Shown piece after piece: positions 219-11,930 of a stretch of DNA of 64,000 nucleotides. Source of the stretch: Anaeropeptidivorans aminofermentans (GTDB lineage: Bacteria > Bacillota > Clostridia > Lachnospirales > UBA5962); the NCBI RefSeq assembly GCF_940670685.1, contig NZ_OW711693.1:1612001-1676000 (forward strand), given 5' to 3'. Every line of letters starts with the position of its first letter. Within the stretch, counting starts at the first letter, position 1. Both the position numbers and the translations under genes were made by a program. The notes below the pieces were generated by a model. It was given only the letters and a program-made list of their open reading frames with translations, was not told the DNA's origin and did no database searches.

Positions 219-1079
219 TTACACCCCTAAATAAAATCCGTCGGATAAAACACGCTCTATTTCTGAGACAATTTCCATAGCCTTATCCCTGTCGCTTTGA
301 ATTACTTCCTCTACAATATAGTTAATAAGGCTCATGGGGGCCACAAAGGAATCTTTGAATGTTACGCTGTTTATCTGGCATTTAAGTATAATGTCTGCAT
401 AAATTTCTATCTGTTTAAAGGAAGGGGAGGTTATAAGTATGTTTTTAACGCCTTTTTCCTTCATGCTGGAGAGCAAGGAAATAGTGGTGCGGGGATACCG
501 GGGAAATAAAAAAGCGATGCATACGTCATCTTTTTCTGCACTTATGATTTCTTCCGGATATAGTGAACCAATAGCTTGAACCAGATGAACATTTTTACGT
601 ATTTGGGAAAGCCTTGACATTAAATAATGGGAAATAGAGAAAGACCCTCGAAGCCCCAAAATATACACATTTTTTGCTTTACTGATCATAGAAACACATT
701 TTTTTAAATCCTCCTCTGAAAGCATAGAGAGGGTTTCCATGATGTTATTCATATCTGTTTCAAAAGTAGATTTGAGCAGGCCGCTTCCTGCTTTATTTTT
801 ATGGGAACGAGAGAGCCTTTCAGGAAGTCCTACCTTTTTTGTAAGATTATTTTGAATATTTTGCTGGAATTCAGAGTAACTGGAAAAGCCCAAAATTTTA
901 GCAACCCGAATAATAGAAGTAGTGCTTACGCCTATTTCAAGAGCCAGGCTATCCAGTGTCTGAAAGGCAATTCTATTTAAATTTGCCAGCAGAAAATCCG
1001 CTACCTTCCTTTGGGTATTTGAAAGGGAAGCATATATTGAATTGATTTTAGCTAGAACATCAACTTCTTTATTTTCCAT
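219..1079 (-). CDS. MurR/RpiR family transcriptional regulator (HTH + SIS domain)
   Basis: The product is about 286 aa. Residues 1-77 form the RpiR-type helix-turn-helix (the AKILGFSSYSEFQ recognition region is clear). Residues about 115-245 form a SIS sugar-isomerase domain that normally binds a phosphorylated sugar or sugar acid. RpiR regulators usually control the neighbouring catabolic operon. Here the gene is divergent from the antiporter/kinase/enolase-like cluster, so it is the likely local regulator, with a phosphorylated acid as a plausible effector (inference). The ATG at 1079 is chosen. A GTG at 1094 is also in frame but sits directly on the AAGGAG ribosome site, so the start is uncertain by five codons. 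Confidence 0.85.
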   Translation of the reverse strand: MENKEVDVLAKINSIYASLSNTQRKVADFLLANLNRIAFQTLDSLALEIGVSTTSIIRVAKILGFSSYSEFQQNIQNNLTKKVGLPERLSRSHKNKAGSGLLKSTFETDMNNIMETLSMLSEEDLKKCVSMISKAKNVYILGLRGSFSISHYLMSRLSQIRKNVHLVQAIGSLYPEEIISAEKDDVCIAFLFPRYPRTTISLLSSMKEKGVKNILITSPSFKQIEIYADIILKCQINSVTFKDSFVAPMSLINYIVEEVIQSDRDKAMEIVSEIERVLSDGFYLGV

Positions 1080-1094
1080 TTTTAATGAGAACAC

Positions 1095-1729: not shown

Positions 1730-2886
1730 ATGGCAGACAACAATCAAGCAACAAAATTAAAGAAAAGACCGTCATGGATGTTTTCCTTTATTATTCTTGT
1801 ATTGGTAGCATTATACCTTTTTTATACGCCTTCATCACAGAAACCAGCTGGGGCTCTATGGGTACGGTAGGCATTGCCATGATGGCAGTTGGCGCAGGCC
1901 TTGGGGCAAATCCTGCAATGACGGCAGGCGCAATCGTAAGCGGTGCATTTTTAGGAGACGGCTGGACCCCCATATCAGATACTCTTCTTGTTAATACCGC
2001 AGTTACAGAAGTAAAGCCAATGGATTTCTTTAAAAAGTTATCTAAAATTGCTTTGCCTGCATTTGTGCTTACTTGTATTTTCTACATAGCGCTCGGTTTT
2101 ATAGCATCCGGGGCCAAAGGAACAGGGGATTATTCCCAGGTAAATTTAGTAATGGATTCCATGCAGGCGCATTTTAAAATATCTATTATTCCGTTTCTTC
2201 CCTGTATTTTAGTAATCATCATGCTTGCAAAAGGTAAGCCTTCTGTTATAACTCTTCTTCTTGGCAGCTTAACTGCCGGCATCGTAGCTGTTCTTTATCA
2301 AAGAGCATCGGTTCCAGATGTATTAAATGCCTTCTGGGGCGGATATAAATTAACTTCCGGCGTTGCTTTGATAGATTCTCTTTTAAGCCGCGGAGGAATT
2401 ACAAGCATGTTCTCCACTACAGGATTATACATGATTAGTTTCGCCTTAATAGGAATGATGAACCGGGTAGGGATTATCGAAGAAGTTGTGCGCCCTATCC
2501 TTGGAAAAATCAAGGGCCGTATGGGCCTTGCCTTATCTACGATTTCCATGGCATTTATCGGAAACGCCGTAGGCTGCTCCGGAAACTTTTCCTATCTTTT
2601 TACAGGAACGATTATGCTTCCTTCCTACAAGAAGTTTGGATTGAAAAATATGGAGTGCGCAAGAGCCATGGGCTGCTCCGTAACGCCTATGGGTCCGTTA
2701 ATCCCGTGGAATATGAATGCCGTTATAGCCCTTCAGTATTTTGGTGTAAGCTCTCTGCAGTACGGTCCGTTTTTCTTCATAGCATTTATCATGCCAATAC
2801 TTTATATACTGGCTGTAATATTTAAATTTGACATTTCCGAATACTCCCAAGAGGAGCTTAGGGCTATGGAAACCGCAGGAGCATAA
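1730..2886 (+). pseudogene. NhaC-family Na+/H+ antiporter, internally deleted and frameshifted
   Basis: A good AGGAGG site precedes the ATG at 1730. This frame starts like an NhaC protein (MADNNQATKLKKRPSWMFSF, then a membrane helix) but reaches a stop at 1868-1870. The rest is open in another frame from about 1815 to 2886 and contains the typical NhaC region TSWGSMGTVGIA, then GDGWTPISDT and many membrane helices. Joining the two leaves about 385-390 residues against a usual 450-480. About 80-90 residues between helix 1 and TSWG therefore appear lost together with the reading frame. The family exchanges Na+ and H+, and some members move organic acids or amino acids. The position before the kinase and enolase-like genes suggests a transporter for that pathway's substrate. 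As read, it would not make a full protein. Confidence 0.75.
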
Positions 2887-2914: not shown

Positions 2915-4321
2915 TTGAAAATAAAAAACAGACAGGAGATTCTCTCCTGTGGGGATATAAAATCCAAAGAAATACTTTTGGATATTACAGAACAGACATT
3001 AGAGAAATTAGACGGCTATAAAAGAATAAAAATGATTATGCGCTTAGAAGGCGATATCCTCCACGTAGGCAACTGCTCATGGGATTTATCCAAAAAGAAA
3101 AATGTTTATTTAGTCGGCGCAGGTAAGGCCTGTAATGCAATGGCTATGGCGGTAGATGAAATTCTCGGAGATAAATTAACCGCAGGATACGCCATTGTAA
3201 AGATAAAGGAAGATAACGATGTATTCAGAAAAACTAAAATTTTTGTCGGCGGTCATCCCCTTCCTAACGAAGAAGGCTTAAAAGCCTGCAAAGAAATCTT
3301 ATCGATTGTGGATAATGCATCGGCTGATGATTTATTTATAGGCGTTATTTCCGGCGGAAGCTCTGCTTTAATGGGTTGCCCTGTAGAAGGCATTACGCTT
3401 GAAGATGAAATTGCCACTACCGACGTAATTTTAAAATCCGGTGCAGGCATATTAGAACTGAATGCTGTTCGCAGGCATATCTCTCAAATGAACGGCGGAA
3501 TGCTTGCAAAAAGGATTCAGGCGCGAGGAGCCGAGCTGATAGGCATTGCCATTAATGACGCCATAGGCTTTGCACAGACAAAAGATATTTCCATTCCCTT
3601 TGAAAATTATTCGGGAACCCCTATCGGCCCTGATTTTACAACATTAGAAGAGGCCAGAAGGGTTATCAAAGACTATGATTTGGCTCATCGCCTTCCCCGC
3701 AGCGTAGTAGATTATTTAATGAACTGTTCAGAAGAAGGGGAAACACCGAAAAGCTTTCCTGAAAATAAATATTTTGTGCTTAACACTCTGCCAGATTCCT
3801 GTGTTTACGCAAAGGAATTTGCCGAAGAAATGGGCCTTAACGCGATGATTTTAACTTCATATCTTGAGGGAGAAAGCAAGGAAGCAGGTACGTTTTTTGC
3901 TTCTCTTGCCCGTGAAATTCAAGCATACCACAGACCCATAAAACCACCCTGTGTTGTTATATGCTCCGGTGAGACAACAACTCAAATTTTAGATAACAGT
4001 AAGATAAAGGGCCACGGCGGGCCTTCCCAGGAGCTTGTTTCAAGCTTTGCAATTACTGCTGCAAAGGCCAAGGGCATTGCCATGCTCTCTATTGACAGCG
4101 AAGGAACAGACGGTTCCACATCGGCGGCAGGGGGCATTACGGATTCTCAGACTTATCCTTCTTCTGTTGAAAAGAATATAAGCCTTTATGAAGCATTGAG
4201 AGGCCATGCTACAAATGAGGCTTTGGAACAATTAAAAGGCCTTGTTATAACAGGAAATACAGGGACTAATCTTTGCGATTTTAACATTATGTATGTGCCT
4301 GAATTGGATAACAATAATTAA
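2915..4321 (+). CDS. Glycerate 2-kinase, MOFRL family
   Basis: The product has 468 aa and starts with TTG behind AGAAGGGG. It shows the glycerate-2-kinase type II fold: GAGKA at 68-72, ISGGSSAL at about 145-152, NAVRRHIS at 183-190, and a C-terminal MOFRL domain with GTDGSTSAAGG. Family members phosphorylate D-glycerate, or related hydroxy acids, with ATP to 2-phosphoglycerate in the cytoplasm. The gene lies 28 bases after the antiporter stop and before two enolase-like genes. This is suggestive because 2-phosphoglycerate is the enolase substrate, although those proteins are not canonical enolases. The true substrate could be another sugar acid. Confidence 0.85.
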   Translation: MKIKNRQEILSCGDIKSKEILLDITEQTLEKLDGYKRIKMIMRLEGDILHVGNCSWDLSKKKNVYLVGAGKACNAMAMAVDEILGDKLTAGYAIVKIKEDNDVFRKTKIFVGGHPLPNEEGLKACKEILSIVDNASADDLFIGVISGGSSALMGCPVEGITLEDEIATTDVILKSGAGILELNAVRRHISQMNGGMLAKRIQARGAELIGIAINDAIGFAQTKDISIPFENYSGTPIGPDFTTLEEARRVIKDYDLAHRLPRSVVDYLMNCSEEGETPKSFPENKYFVLNTLPDSCVYAKEFAEEMGLNAMILTSYLEGESKEAGTFFASLAREIQAYHRPIKPPCVVICSGETTTQILDNSKIKGHGGPSQELVSSFAITAAKAKGIAMLSIDSEGTDGSTSAAGGITDSQTYPSSVEKNISLYEALRGHATNEALEQLKGLVITGNTGTNLCDFNIMYVPELDNNN

Positions 4322-4487: not shown

Positions 4488-5777
4488 ATGCTTAGTACGG
4501 AAATCAGAGACGTTCATGCCCGTCAAATTCTTGACTGCAAAGCCCGCCCTGTATTGGAGATTGTCATAACAACGGAAGGCGGAAAAAAGGGGATAGGCTG
4601 TGCACCGACGGGCACTTCTGTAGGGATGCATGAAGCTTACGTTTTACGCGATGGAAATCCCCAAAAATACGATGGATTAAGCGTTGAGGCTGTGGCGGAA
4701 AATATAAACACAAATATTGCCGCTTTACTTCGGGGCATGAATGTTTTAAACCAGAATACCATAGATGAATATATTATTAAGCTGGACGGAACCCCAAACA
4801 AATCTAAACTCGGGGGAAATGTGATTTACAGTATTTCCATCGGAGCGGCAAAAGCAGCGGCAGCAACTTTAGGCATGGACCTTTGCGAATATCTTTCCCC
4901 TAAGGAGCTTAAGACCTTGCCTGTACCTACATATAATTTAATTAACGGCGGGGCATATCCTGAATTTTCTTTGGCCTTTCAGGAATTTTCCCTTGTTCCC
5001 TATGGGGCCTGCGGTATGGCGGAAGCTGTTGAAATAGGGGTTAAAACCTTTAACTGCCTTGGAAAAGTGATTTCAAAATATAAAAAGGGTGCGCCTGCTT
5101 CCATGGGGAATTATTTCGGCTGGGCACCTGTAAATGATGACCCAAGAACCGCAATGGAGCTTATTGCGGAAGCAGTAGCTTTATGCGGGTATGAAAATAA
5201 AGTGGCCTATGCCCTTGACTGTGCATCAAGCGAAATGTACGACGCCGAAACAAAAACCTATCTGCTGAAAAATAAAAGGGTAGAAAAAGAAGCCGTCATT
5301 GAAGAGGTACGCTTGCTGTGCGAACAGTACAATATCCTCTATGTAGAAGATATATTGGAAGAAAACGATTGGGATGGATTTAAAGAAGCTGTCCGTATTC
5401 TTGATAAAACAGTAATCATCGGAGACGATTTTACCGTAACCAATACAGAGCGAATTGAAAAGGCATATAAAAATAATTGCGCCGGCGGTTTTGTATTTAA
5501 GCCCAATCAAATAGGCACCATAAGTGAAAGCATAAAGGCCTATTCATTTGCAAAGGAGCGTAATATGCTGATTGTTCCTTCCGGCAGAGCAGGGGGAATC
5601 ATTGATGATGTTGTAATGGATATGGCTGTAGCATTGGAAGCCCCGGCCGTAAAAAACGGTGCTCCTCGTTCCGGCGAGCGGATTAATCAAATAAATTATC
5701 TTCTCAGAGCAGCAGACAATAACCCTGATGCAAAGCTTTACGACCTTTCTCATTTGGCTGCAAAAGGAAAGAATTAA
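4488..5777 (+). CDS. Enolase-like protein 1, lacking canonical catalytic residues
   Basis: The product has 429 aa and spans the whole enolase fold. By alignment to yeast enolase from memory, these are kept: the mobile loop (GTSVGMHEA), Glu168 (E166, QEF), the metal ligands (D244 in ALDCASSE, E287 in VEDILEEND, D313 in GDDFTVTN), Lys345 (K338 in KPNQIGT), Lys396 (K389) and Arg374 (R367). Lost are His159 (Y157), the acid Glu211 of GDEGG (here G-N-Y-F-G, Y209), His373 (G366) and Ser375 (A368). It should bind Mg and may form an enolate intermediate, but the leaving-group chemistry and phosphate site must differ. It is probably not the glycolytic enolase. A GGAGG site precedes the ATG. A paralog follows 230 bases downstream. 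Confidence 0.8.
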   Translation: MLSTEIRDVHARQILDCKARPVLEIVITTEGGKKGIGCAPTGTSVGMHEAYVLRDGNPQKYDGLSVEAVAENINTNIAALLRGMNVLNQNTIDEYIIKLDGTPNKSKLGGNVIYSISIGAAKAAAATLGMDLCEYLSPKELKTLPVPTYNLINGGAYPEFSLAFQEFSLVPYGACGMAEAVEIGVKTFNCLGKVISKYKKGAPASMGNYFGWAPVNDDPRTAMELIAEAVALCGYENKVAYALDCASSEMYDAETKTYLLKNKRVEKEAVIEEVRLLCEQYNILYVEDILEENDWDGFKEAVRILDKTVIIGDDFTVTNTERIEKAYKNNCAGGFVFKPNQIGTISESIKAYSFAKERNMLIVPSGRAGGIIDDVVMDMAVALEAPAVKNGAPRSGERINQINYLLRAADNNPDAKLYDLSHLAAKGKN

Positions 5778-6007
5778 ACCCTCTATAGGAGGTTTTTAAG
5801 GCAATACCTGATGAAATTAAATTGGGCTGAAGAGCGCCTCCTCTTCAGGGAGAAGTTTTTCCTTTAAGGTAAGCCTTAATCTAAATCACAATAGAATATT
5901 TAGGCTCATTAACAATTATACAGACTTAAATTTCAAAAGAAAGAAGTATTACTTAAAATGCTTTATACAATATAGCAGATGAATCGACATTAAGGAGATA
6001 TGTAATA

Positions 6008-7288
6008 ATGAAAAGCACTTCAATACGCACGGTATACGCGCGACAAATTATGGACTGTAACTGCCGCCCTATGGTGGAAGTTGATATTGTTACGGAAGGC
6101 GGCGTTATGGGAAGGGCCTCAGCATCTACAGGCTCATCTGTCGGCTCATATGAGTCCTATGTTTTAAGAGACAATGACTTTGAAAGATTTGCAGGCTTAA
6201 GCGTTTTTAAGGCTGTAGAAAATGTAAATAAGATTATTGCACCTGCGCTTAAAGGGGTAGATATACTGAATCAAAAAGAAATTGACGCAATTATGATTGA
6301 ACTTGACGGTACCCCGCAGAAAAATAAATTGGGAGGCAACACCATCGGAAGCGTGTCCTTTGCCGCTTTAAGAACAGCCGCCAAAACTATGAATACAGAA
6401 GTATATCACTACCTTTCCGAAGGGAAGCTTAAATCCCTCCCAATTCCTACCTTTAATAGCATTAACGGGGGCAAATATCATGGCTTTAGAATGGCCTTTC
6501 AAGAATTTACATTTATCCCTTATAAGGCTGAGAATATGGAAGAAGCCGTTGAAATTGCTTTTTCTGTTTTTAAGCATATCGAAACAGTCATAGAACGCTT
6601 CCAAAAGGGTGAACCGGCTAAAGTAGGCCATTATTATGGTTGGATGCCGCCTAATGACAATCCTGAAACTGCAATGGAAGTTTTACATACCGCAGTTGTT
6701 GAATGCGGGTACGAAAACAAGGTCGCTTACGCTTTAGACTGCGCTGCCAGTGAAATATACGACAAAAATACAAAACTCTATGAACTTAAGGGGAAAATGG
6801 TGGATGCAGATGAAATAATAGCGCTGGTAAAAAGGCTCAGCGAAAAATATAACTTATTATATGTAGAAGATATTTTGGACGAAAATGACTGGGACGGATA
6901 TAAAAGAGCGGTAAAAGCCCTCAATCGTACCATAGTTATCGGTGATGATTTTACAGTGACAAATGCAGAAAGACTTAAAAAAGCCTATCAGGAAAAGGCC
7001 GCCGAAGGCTTTATATTAAAGCCGAATCAGGCCGGAACCATCACTGAAAGCTTAGAAGCGGTAAAATACGCAAATGAAAAGGGCTTATTGGTTGTTCCTT
7101 CCCAGAGGGCAGGGGGAGCCGTTGATGATATTGTTCCGGATTTAGCTATAGCGATTAATGCCCCTGCAATAAAAAACAGTGCCCCTAGAACAGGCGAGAG
7201 AATTTACGCTTTAAATTGCCTCTATAGAGCCGCTGAAATGGAACCAAATTTGGACCTTTATGATTTTACACCATTTATAAGGTTTTAG
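6008..7288 (+). CDS. Enolase-like protein 2, lacking canonical catalytic residues
   Basis: The product has 426 aa and aligns with the preceding enolase-like protein without gaps through residue 400. It shows the same replacements: Y157 for His159, H208-Y209-Y210 in place of the DEG of GDEGG, and Q366 for His373. It keeps the same core: E166, D244, E287, D313, K338, R367 and K389. Both paralogs share a GW-A/M-P-x-ND segment after the altered loop, so this is a defined subgroup and not random decay. Enolases are dimers or octamers, so the two could form a heteromer (inference). An AAGGAG site precedes the ATG. The stop codon is the first base pair of a 27-bp terminator stem. Confidence 0.8.
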   Translation: MKSTSIRTVYARQIMDCNCRPMVEVDIVTEGGVMGRASASTGSSVGSYESYVLRDNDFERFAGLSVFKAVENVNKIIAPALKGVDILNQKEIDAIMIELDGTPQKNKLGGNTIGSVSFAALRTAAKTMNTEVYHYLSEGKLKSLPIPTFNSINGGKYHGFRMAFQEFTFIPYKAENMEEAVEIAFSVFKHIETVIERFQKGEPAKVGHYYGWMPPNDNPETAMEVLHTAVVECGYENKVAYALDCAASEIYDKNTKLYELKGKMVDADEIIALVKRLSEKYNLLYVEDILDENDWDGYKRAVKALNRTIVIGDDFTVTNAERLKKAYQEKAAEGFILKPNQAGTITESLEAVKYANEKGLLVVPSQRAGGAVDDIVPDLAIAINAPAIKNSAPRTGERIYALNCLYRAAEMEPNLDLYDFTPFIRF

Positions 7289-7345
7289 GATTAAAAGCAA
7301 TAAAAAACTACCTGTTTACAGGTAGTTTTTTATTGCTTTTAATCC
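7288..7345. terminator. Bidirectional terminator with 27-bp perfect stem
   Basis: The left arm 7288-7314 and right arm 7319-7345 are perfectly complementary around a TTTA loop. Each arm contains an A or T run, so the hairpin works on both strands. The outermost pair is the last base of the TAG stop of the plus-strand enolase-like gene and of the TAG stop of the minus-strand arginase-family gene. Confidence 0.95.
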
Positions 7346-8215
7346 TAATCATTGAAAATAGAAATACCTGAAAGCACATTTCTTAAATTTATAGCGTCCC
7401 AAGGCATATGTTCCGCAATCCCCAGCCCTACAATTTCAGTTTTTTCCGATATATCATTTAAAATTCTTCCAATTTCATTTAATGTCATTCTGCCAACAGC
7501 GGCAGGAAAACAACCTAAATCCATATAAGGCATTGCGGTTAAAATTGCTCTGAAATCAGTGGGAGATAATACGTCTAAATCCCAATGGACCGCTAAATAT
7601 TCAATGCTGTTTTCTTCTATCCAATTGAGTATGGGTTGGCTGCTTTCTGCAAGCTCTTCCGGCGATGCAATTTTTAAATTCAGTTTCTTGCAAGTTTTAT
7701 CCATTTTCCTTAAATCTTCTTCAATTAATCCTGCAAACATTACTTCATTGGGCTTAAATGGATGTTTTACTTTTGTGATATTGGAACAGGGATTTTGCCC
7801 AAGCAAATTGGCCAGTACCATTTCATGAAGATGGGAAGAATCTTTTGGGCCCGCAACATCGGGGTGAGCGTCAAGCCATAATATACCCAGTTTGTCTGTA
7901 TACTTGGATTTAAGATAATCAAAGGGAACCTGAGTTATAGAGCAGTCTCCCCCAAATATGATTACCTTATCCGGCTGCCTGTCATTTAAAATTCTCTCTG
8001 CTTCTGCCATTTGCACAATTAAACTATCTCCGGCGTCAATACCGTCAGTTGATGATAAATCCGCATTAAAATTTCTATCAACCTTAATTTCAACGGTTTC
8101 ATCTTTTGTGCTGGGGGTGCGATATAAGCCAGAAGCTCTGAGCCGAATACATAATTAGGATTGATACCGCCCTGCCATTGGGGAAATACCATTCTAAGTG
8201 TTTTTTCTTTTCCAT
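7345..8215 (-). pseudogene. Arginase/agmatinase-family gene with two 5' frameshifts
   Basis: The long open part covers 7345 to about 8110 and shows arginase-family metal motifs: GGDCS (His of GGDHS replaced by Cys), DAHPD and WDLDVLSP. A good AAGGAG site and ATG lie at 8215, but reading the whole gene needs two one-base corrections. The first is near the T6 run at 8201-8206, to read K-T-L-R-M-V-F-P-Q-W-Q-G-G. The second is at the G5 run 8113-8117, to join YIAPP to STKDETVEIKV. Corrected length is about 290 aa, normal for ureohydrolases that split arginine, agmatine or similar guanidino compounds. The Cys for His change occurs in some uncharacterised members, so the substrate is unclear. Shifts at homopolymers could be decay, phase variation or sequencing error. 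Confidence 0.75.
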
Positions 8216-10505: not shown

Positions 10506-11930
10506 TTACTTGTGAAAATCCATTTCCATGTCCTCATCTAAAGGATAAATAGGGCGTGGGGTTCTTACATAGGGCAAATCTTTCAGAACCAATGCAGTTG
10601 CGCCGGGAGAAAGGGCAAGGATTGCTCTCTTGGCGATTTTTAAGTATTCGGGGTGTAAATATCCATTTTTTATTACCACAGTCTGATAATTCATCACGTC
10701 CATGCCAAGGCTTTCTAGAAGCTCAGGATTATGTGGAGCGCAGCGTTTATCTGATACGATTAAGGTAATGTCTTGAATTTTAAGGATTGCAAATTTTGTA
10801 CCGTCGACTTCGATAATATCTTTAAATATAAATTTTTGAGGAATTTTTTCGCCGTCTCTAACCCAGATAAGTTCAAATTCCTCATTTTTGGCTTTTCCTA
10901 AGCACTGGTCAAAGGCAAATTTATCTGCAACTGTTGAGAAAACAGCGTTTTTCTGATTGTTCTTTATCATTTCAAAAAGCATGTGAAGACTGTTTTGGGT
11001 TGCCCCTGCTGTTGGATTATCGCCGCCGTCGGATACAAAGACAGGCCCTTCAGGAAATTCGTTGGCGATTTTTAAAGCTTCCGCCGGTACTTTTGCTTCC
11101 ATGGAAAACTGAAATTCTTTTCTTATAGACCAGAATCTTTCTGCCATATCTTTGGCTGTTTCGTATAAAAATTCTAAATCTTCCTCACAACCGCATACTA
11201 AGGAGCCTGCACCGCCAAAAGGAGAGTCTGCCCAGGGAAAGCCCATTACATAAGAAGAAGCGACAACTTTATCCTTTTTGTCGATTTCAATCAAAGATTC
11301 AAAAAGGCTCTTTGCCGGGTCAACTCTTGTTTCGCTCTGCTCGCCGCAGACAAGAAGCGGAATCTTAACTAAAGCAGTTTTTAAATTTTTCTTTTCCTTA
11401 AGGGACTGAATGAGAATCTCTGCCGCCCTTACGCCTGTATCGTATGCATCTGTATGGGGTGCCTTTCTGTATGCGTAAAAGCCGTTGCAGTTGCGAATCA
11501 TTTTATCGGTTAAAGTAGCATGCATATCAAGGGAGCTTACGATTGGAATATCAGGCCATATTTTTCTTATATCTTCTAAAAGAGCTCCTTCGGGGTCATC
11601 TTCACCGTCAACGGCCATAGAGCCGTGAAGGGCAAGGCAGATACCGTCAAGATATGGTATTTCAGAAAGCCCTTTTACTATATTGTTTTTAAAGGTTAAA
11701 AATGTTTCTAATGTAAGCATACCCGAGGGGATTCCTCTGGCAAAAAATGTGGGGAAAATCTCAGCGCCTTCTTTTTGAAGGGTTTTATATATTCCGCCGA
11801 CTACGGATTCGCCCCAGCCCTTAGTCCTATAAACATCTTCACCGAAAACCGTCGTAAAATCTTCACAAACAGAACGTATTTCCGTAAACGAATTGCTCTC
11901 ATGCATCATAGAAGCAATTGCGATTTTCAT
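10506..11930 (-). CDS. M81 family metallopeptidase (MlrC/microcystinase-like)
   Basis: The product has 474 aa and starts with ATG behind AGAGGAGG. The N-terminal M81 domain shows MMHESNSF near residue 13 and SLDMHATLTDKM at about 135-145. The C-terminal MlrC domain begins after about residue 295 (SDGGDNPTAGA). These carry the Zn-binding acid and His residues expected for the family. MlrC cleaves linearised microcystin, but most clostridial homologs occur without any microcystin pathway and probably act on small modified peptides or amides. No signal peptide, so cytoplasmic. It is transcribed alone and ends at a strong terminator. Confidence 0.85.
   Translation of the reverse strand: MKIAIASMMHESNSFTEIRSVCEDFTTVFGEDVYRTKGWGESVVGGIYKTLQKEGAEIFPTFFARGIPSGMLTLETFLTFKNNIVKGLSEIPYLDGICLALHGSMAVDGEDDPEGALLEDIRKIWPDIPIVSSLDMHATLTDKMIRNCNGFYAYRKAPHTDAYDTGVRAAEILIQSLKEKKNLKTALVKIPLLVCGEQSETRVDPAKSLFESLIEIDKKDKVVASSYVMGFPWADSPFGGAGSLVCGCEEDLEFLYETAKDMAERFWSIRKEFQFSMEAKVPAEALKIANEFPEGPVFVSDGGDNPTAGATQNSLHMLFEMIKNNQKNAVFSTVADKFAFDQCLGKAKNEEFELIWVRDGEKIPQKFIFKDIIEVDGTKFAILKIQDITLIVSDKRCAPHNPELLESLGMDVMNYQTVVIKNGYLHPEYLKIAKRAILALSPGATALVLKDLPYVRTPRPIYPLDEDMEMDFHK

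Follow-up and report, generated by a model that had tools for sequence, protein, structure and literature searches.

In canonical enolase (EC 4.2.1.11), Arg374 is a phosphate ligand; the remaining active-site residues are discussed here in the roles that we take them to have in that enzyme, with yeast enolase numbering assigned via conserved motifs. For the E211Q variant, a lysine base that still works in the absence of the acid is reported. Elsewhere in the superfamily, the 3-methylaspartate ammonia-lyase and MR/MLE branches provide a precedent for the elimination of ammonia, while the enolase subgroup is, to our knowledge, generally treated as having a single function. The MOFRL kinases, to which the class II glycerate 2-kinases belong, possess a GK motif containing the catalytic lysine. 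The enolase subgroup figure of a curation paper depicts a single enolase family (PMC5467563), and the characterised class II glycerate kinases, in the account of PMC2063504, produce 2-phosphoglycerate. A word search of the open-licence literature, with subscription papers outside its scope, returned no paper on a family of linked kinases and enolase-like proteins of the kind described below.

The window, that is, the whole stretch of DNA that was analysed, comprises 64,000 nucleotides from Anaeropeptidivorans aminofermentans (contig NZ_OW711693.1, positions 1,612,001 to 1,676,000). It contains the following cluster:

219–1094, minus strand: RpiR-type regulator (HTH_6 and SIS domains by Pfam), divergent to the cluster
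1774–2886, plus strand: NhaC/ArcD-type antiporter, N-terminal part missing or frameshifted (TIGR00931 match from profile position 111 only)
2915–4321, plus strand: MOFRL/DUF4147 (class II glycerate kinase) family kinase of an enolase-linked subfamily, TTG start (Pfam, motifs)
4488–5777, plus strand: e1, enolase-like, without H159, E211, H373 and S375 (open reading frame, alignment, model, structural superposition)
6008–7288, plus strand: e2, enolase-like, with the same losses as e1 (open reading frame, alignment)

Checking of frames and coordinates gave 429 amino acid residues for e1 and 426 for e2; from the coordinates, 170 bp separate the kinase from e1 and 230 bp separate e1 from e2. The antiporter gene looks broken. 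An NhaC-like start from the ATG at 1730 lies in a different frame and ends after 46 codons, and the remainder (to 2886) resumes at about 1774 in another frame, leaving roughly 80–100 residues missing; this was presumably the former transporter of the locus. Beyond the cluster, the minus strand carries an arginase-family open reading frame of 223 residues (7345–8016), which is probably truncated, since its best Pfam stretch begins at profile position 84, and an M81/MlrC-type metallopeptidase (10506–11930; DUF1485 and MlrC_C by Pfam). An Rfam scan of the window returned no family at or above cut-off, and promoter- and terminator-like sites in the window were no more frequent than in shuffles.

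The original prediction, made from the sequence of the window, described two enolase-fold proteins of full length in which the metal ligands, both lysines and Arg374 remain, and this is confirmed by alignment and by the model of e1. Aligned with 61 canonical enolases, both proteins retain S39, Q167, E168, D246, E295, D320, K345, R374 and K396. The structure of e1 was predicted with confidence as an enolase fold (mean pLDDT 93.0, pTM 0.91), which superposes on solved enolases over approximately 415 residues (Z about 50–52, rmsd about 1.7–2.1 Å), and the active-site losses are therefore not an artefact of the alignment. The possibility that the catalytic residues had simply shifted was also checked: the E211 loop aligns without a gap, and the residues are truly replaced. 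Both H159 and E211 have become Tyr in e1 and e2, in agreement with the predicted shared replacements, while the claim of identical replacements does not extend to H373, where e1 has Gly and e2 has Gln. A further change, of S375 to Ala in both, was absent from the original list. The common G-W-x-P-x-N-D segment is present as GWAPVND and GWMPPND.

The two proteins share 54% identity with each other, and e1 and e2 are 39% and 37% identical, respectively, to the canonical-type enolase of the same genome. The pair scores 374.8 and 381.7 bits with TIGR01060 (phosphopyruvate hydratase; cut-off 300). With MR_MLE_C, e1 reached 22.9 bits (below 29.4) and e2 33.7 bits, as against 218 and 212 bits with Enolase_C, and for neither was a match to MR_MLE_N listed by Pfam. 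The pair belongs to the same superfamily as the MR/MLE and 3-methylaspartate ammonia-lyase branches and would share their alpha-proton abstraction; its best Pfam and NCBIfam matches are to enolase proper. The resemblance to enolase covers the whole fold, the metal ligands, Lys345, Lys396, Arg374, Glu168 and the TIGR01060 score; the differences are the loss of Glu211, His373 and nearly always His159 in the family as a whole, the neighbouring kinase, and an identity of 36–39%.

A scan of 84,980 species genomes yielded at least 20 loci of the same kind (L012–L031) in Bacillota, Actinomycetota and Pseudomonadota, together with one Planctomycetota bin and one Deltaproteobacteria bin. With those added by genome searches around the window genome and other centres, 32 loci and 36 enolase-like sequences were analysed. 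The canonical set for comparison (n = 61), consisting of 60 enolases from the same pattern scan and the window genome's own gene, is not a random sample of enolases. E211 and H373 are absent from all 36 members and present in all 61 canonical sequences; H159 is absent from 35 of the 36, the exception being the second copy of locus L097 (L097b). Position 211 is occupied by Ser (28), Tyr (7) or Gly (1), position 373 by Gly (28) or Gln (8), and position 159 by Tyr (29), Asn (6) or His (1, L097b). By comparison, E168, D246, E295, D320, K345, R374 and K396 are invariant in both sets. Three further positions mark the family: an Arg in 36/36 where 60 of the 61 canonical enolases have Asn, a Pro in 36/36 replacing Val, and a Gly in 36/36 replacing Glu377, which is Glu in 61/61 canonical sequences. 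An Asp in the E211 loop is conserved in 33 of the 36 members. That the active-site changes are maintained, as the original prediction had argued, is borne out by their conservation across phyla in this alignment.

A tree of 47 rows separates the family from the canonical enolases and puts the Deltaproteobacteria sequence (L030) on the connecting branch. Counting the window genome, members occur in 2 of 57 near relatives, 4 of 392 genomes of its order and 3 of 398 of its phylum; among 296 and 218 genomes around two other centres, the centre genome alone carries one. The gene of locus L029 meets stops near its end. Judged by alignment and tree, this is a distinct, small and rare, but widespread bacterial family within the enolase subgroup.

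The genome of the window has a separate canonical-type eno (G000:C1:538661-539524), for which the original prediction had advised looking. It retains H159, E211 and H373, and scores 453 bits with Enolase_C, as against the 219 and 213 reached by e1 and e2. This genome also encodes another MOFRL kinase, different from the linked one. Among the 20 genomes of L012–L031, 19 contain a second Enolase_C match of 409–447 bits, whereas family members reach at most 263 bits; these second enolases were called by Enolase_C score alone, and only the L022 bin is without one. We consider it probable that e1 and e2 are distinct from the glycolytic enolase.

The kinase at 2915–4321 matches DUF4147 (186.2 bits) and MOFRL (88.1 bits), both above cut-off, and like the class II glycerate 2-kinases it has both domains and the GK motif, which is kept in the linked kinases wherever that stretch is present. 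It reaches 170.9 bits with the NCBIfam glycerate 2-kinase equivalogs versus a cut-off of 550; these models are narrow, since the other MOFRL kinase of the genome also falls below (239.5 versus 550). The linked kinases differ from the described enzymes in motif: TGNTGTN and RRHIS occur in 28/28 and SGGSS in all 27 with that stretch, while the genome's other MOFRL kinase and two solved relatives have TGPTGTN and SGGGS. GGPxQE was dropped as a mark of the subfamily because a solved archaeal relative has GGPNQE. On these motifs, the linked kinase is a distinct, co-diverged MOFRL subfamily, the substrate of which presumably differs from D-glycerate.

Among the 32 loci, all found via the enolase-like gene, a kinase of this subfamily lies within 1.5 kb in 27, and within 300 bp in 26 of these. 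Three loci (L010, L015 and L114) encode kinase–enolase fusions, each as one uninterrupted frame of 895 residues; the L010 fusion scores 376 bits with TIGR01060 (cut-off 300). The three form one clade in the tree, and a single fusion event is therefore sufficient. In the family of genome G396, where 260 genomes were searched with both proteins, the seven that have a kinase of the subfamily are also the seven that have the enolase-like protein. The adjacency, the fusions and this co-occurrence all support a kinase and an enolase-like protein that act together. Genome G1328 has two copies of the cluster: the fused L114, and the decaying L113, whose kinase is reduced to its C-terminal half and whose OCD gene is split.

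The coupling may not be obligatory. The loci without the kinase are L022 and the four mycobacterial L025–L028, and a search of the four mycobacterial genomes and the L022 bin, run without a positive control of its own, found the linked kinase in none of the five. The enolase-like gene of L026 and L027 is found near Rieske oxygenases, an amidohydrolase and a TauD-type dioxygenase. Given the missing kinase and the Rieske oxygenase and TauD-type genes nearby, the function of the mycobacterial members may be different from that of the rest of the family.

Two enolase-like copies are found in only five of the 32 loci (the window, L021, L022, L097 and L117), so the family does not always occur in pairs and pairing was dropped as a general rule. 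Within the paired clade, an RpiR gene is near all five tandem loci and the kinase near four, with a TctA-type transporter in three and NhaC in the window, and no OCD gene near any of the five. The proteins of this clade, into which the window pair falls, keep Gln167 (9/9) and E168, and have Gln373 in 8/9. The order of the two copies was also examined in the tree. A topology that puts e1 among the second-position (b) copies of L021, L097 and L117 was rejected (AU p 0.020); e2 groups weakly with first-position copies (79/74), and a topology uniting e1 with e2 in a single clade could not be rejected (p 0.217). A heteromeric enzyme, as suggested in the original prediction, is not a general requirement, since pairs occur in just five loci, and is possible within the paired clade.

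A second set of loci is characterized by a gene of the ornithine cyclodeaminase (OCD)/mu-crystallin family; 15 of the 32 loci have one no more than 3 kb from the cluster. The 15 enolase-like proteins beside it all have Asn167, Ser211 and Gly373. All four of the linked OCD proteins tested pass the PRK06199 cut-off, and the same four score below cut-off with the iminosuccinate reductase BhcD and other imine-handling enzymes. The PRK06199-type name "tyramine oxidase subunit B" is not trusted for the linked protein. The relatives of 40–43% identity that were read (two regions) lie alongside a Rid hydrolase and an FAD oxidase, while plasmid OCD genes 80% identical to the linked one adjoin the linked kinase and the enolase-like gene. 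On a Paraburkholderia sabiae plasmid (L120), an OCD gene 73% identical to that of L019 adjoins a D-serine ammonia-lyase gene and a threonine-synthase-like PLP gene, and has no annotated enolase or DUF4147 kinase within 12 kb.

Nine plasmid records from Rhizobium, Shinella and Agrobacterium contain an enolase-like gene, one of them partial. Three annotated plasmid regions begin with the kinase, followed by the enolase-like gene and then OCD, with a Glu/Leu/Phe/Val-dehydrogenase gene next in two of them; the R. jaguaris record leaves the enolase-like gene unannotated. Amino-acid ABC transporters are among the neighbours of the plasmid clusters. Genes of glutamate dehydrogenase type are also located near L112, L017 (by similarity only) and L031 (a large NAD-GDH). 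The amino-acid dehydrogenase-like neighbours and ABC transporters hint that the substrate of this main clade contains nitrogen.

Other neighbours are varied: LarA-type genes (2-hydroxy-acid racemase) near L112 and L097 and, by similarity, L015, L016 and L029; hydantoinase A/B adjoining L014 and L029 and annotated near L118 and L121; an XDH-type oxidase with RraA proteins at L013; and MR/MLE dehydratase-like genes near L021, L117 and L030. Since each is found in a minority of loci, no substrate was named from the hydantoinase, XDH/RraA and MR/MLE genes. At L030, the enolase-like gene is followed immediately by a trimethylamine methyltransferase (MTTB) frame (L030:11270-12109), which ends early and is possibly a pyrrolysine-type readthrough gene. 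A mimosine-type compound was considered on account of the legume hosts of some plasmid carriers (Leucaena, Calliandra, Gliricidia and Phaseolus, mimosoid or other), but others came from Rubus, cucumber and charcoal, and this is a hint at most. Sulfolactate, with release of sulfite, was likewise considered; the neighbours that were scanned, a minority of the total, included no recognisable sulfur gene.

Taken with the kinase adjacency, the fusions, the separate canonical enolase and the conserved active-site changes, a kinase-coupled reaction other than that of enolase, as originally proposed, is likely. The family of e1 and e2 would then consist of enolase-subgroup lyases which act directly after a dedicated MOFRL kinase on a 2-hydroxy acid other than glycerate, a reading that is the simplest and that we hold to be the probable one, the members probably serving to break down that acid. 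As judged from the kinase family, the kinase would phosphorylate the 2-hydroxyl of the acid. The residues retained in the enolase-like protein suggest that two metal ions and Arg374 would hold the carboxylate and the phosphate, that Lys345 would take the C2 proton, and that the group on C3 would leave by beta-elimination to give phosphoenolpyruvate or a substituted analogue. Removal of the alpha-proton is still expected because Lys345, Lys396, the metal ligands and Arg374 are in place, and a different or larger C3 group would fit because the surroundings of the C3 hydroxyl of 2-phosphoglycerate have changed, with smaller or neutral residues in place of Glu211 and His373 and, for the main clade, also of Gln167. 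In the OCD clade, ammonium might serve as the leaving group without the need for Glu211. An unphosphorylated substrate, the other option of the original prediction, is not favoured, since most members come with a kinase and all 36 retain Arg374; it may yet apply to the four mycobacterial loci, which lack the kinase.

A more detailed version of this scheme is tentative and, on present evidence, rather doubtful. It envisages an ATP-dependent lyase route for nitrogenous 2-hydroxy acids, in which the MOFRL kinase would phosphorylate an isoserine- or 3-hydroxyaspartate-like acid on its 2-hydroxyl, the Glu211-less enolase would expel ammonia or an amine from C3 to give phosphoenolpyruvate or an analogue, and the nitrogen would be dealt with by the OCD dehydrogenase and an enzyme of glutamate dehydrogenase type. 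Proteins of the tandem clade, which has TctA-type transporters and no OCD gene nearby, would act on a nitrogen-free carboxylate, possibly as a heteromer.

One alternative is that these are working enolases on a glycerate route, the kinase making 2-phosphoglycerate and the enolase-like protein converting it to phosphoenolpyruvate, with another residue replacing Glu211. The TIGR01060 scores of the pair lie well with this, as do the product of the characterised class II glycerate kinases (PMC2063504, cited above for the same point) and the Asp kept in the E211 loop of 33 of the 36 members; that Asp could replace Glu211, and with Q167 and E168 kept in the paired clade the family may yet perform an ordinary dehydration. 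The route is nevertheless unlikely: 19 of the 20 genomes and the window genome already have a canonical-type enolase, the window genome has a second MOFRL kinase, every member of the family has lost E211 and H373, and a glycerate kinase would gain nothing from a dedicated enolase.

It is also conceivable that the phosphate itself leaves. The kinase would then activate a hydroxyl in an acid of 3-hydroxyaspartate type, positioned alpha to one carboxylate and beta to a carbon that bears an amino group, the enolase-like protein would take the proton beside the amino group, and the resulting enamine or imine would be reduced by the OCD-family protein. Two negative charges are gone from the active site (Glu211 to Ser, Tyr or Gly, and Glu377 to Gly), an OCD-family protein is near 15 of the 32 loci, and the four tested pass PRK06199 and also score, below cut-off, with BhcD and other imine-handling enzymes. 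Yet 17 of the 32 loci, the window included, have no OCD gene within 3 kb, Arg374, the canonical phosphate ligand, is kept in 36/36, and PLP enzymes carry out such eliminations without ATP, all of which makes this scheme improbable. The loss of three canonical active-site residues might instead point to relatives of enolase with a binding or regulatory role and no catalysis; with both catalytic lysines and the three metal ligands in 36/36 members from several phyla, and with fusions to a kinase that are better suited to an enzyme, such a role is very improbable.

Plasmid records name members of the family enolase, and because the members tested clear the cut-off of the NCBI enolase model, these are probably misnamed; that they do so should be taken as a warning for annotation. 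The fusion proteins are single-polypeptide targets for direct substrate screening. The family is a test case for functional change in a highly conserved glycolytic enzyme and, if the proposed lyase reaction is correct, whether on a nitrogenous or a nitrogen-free substrate, the enolase subgroup would have more than one function.
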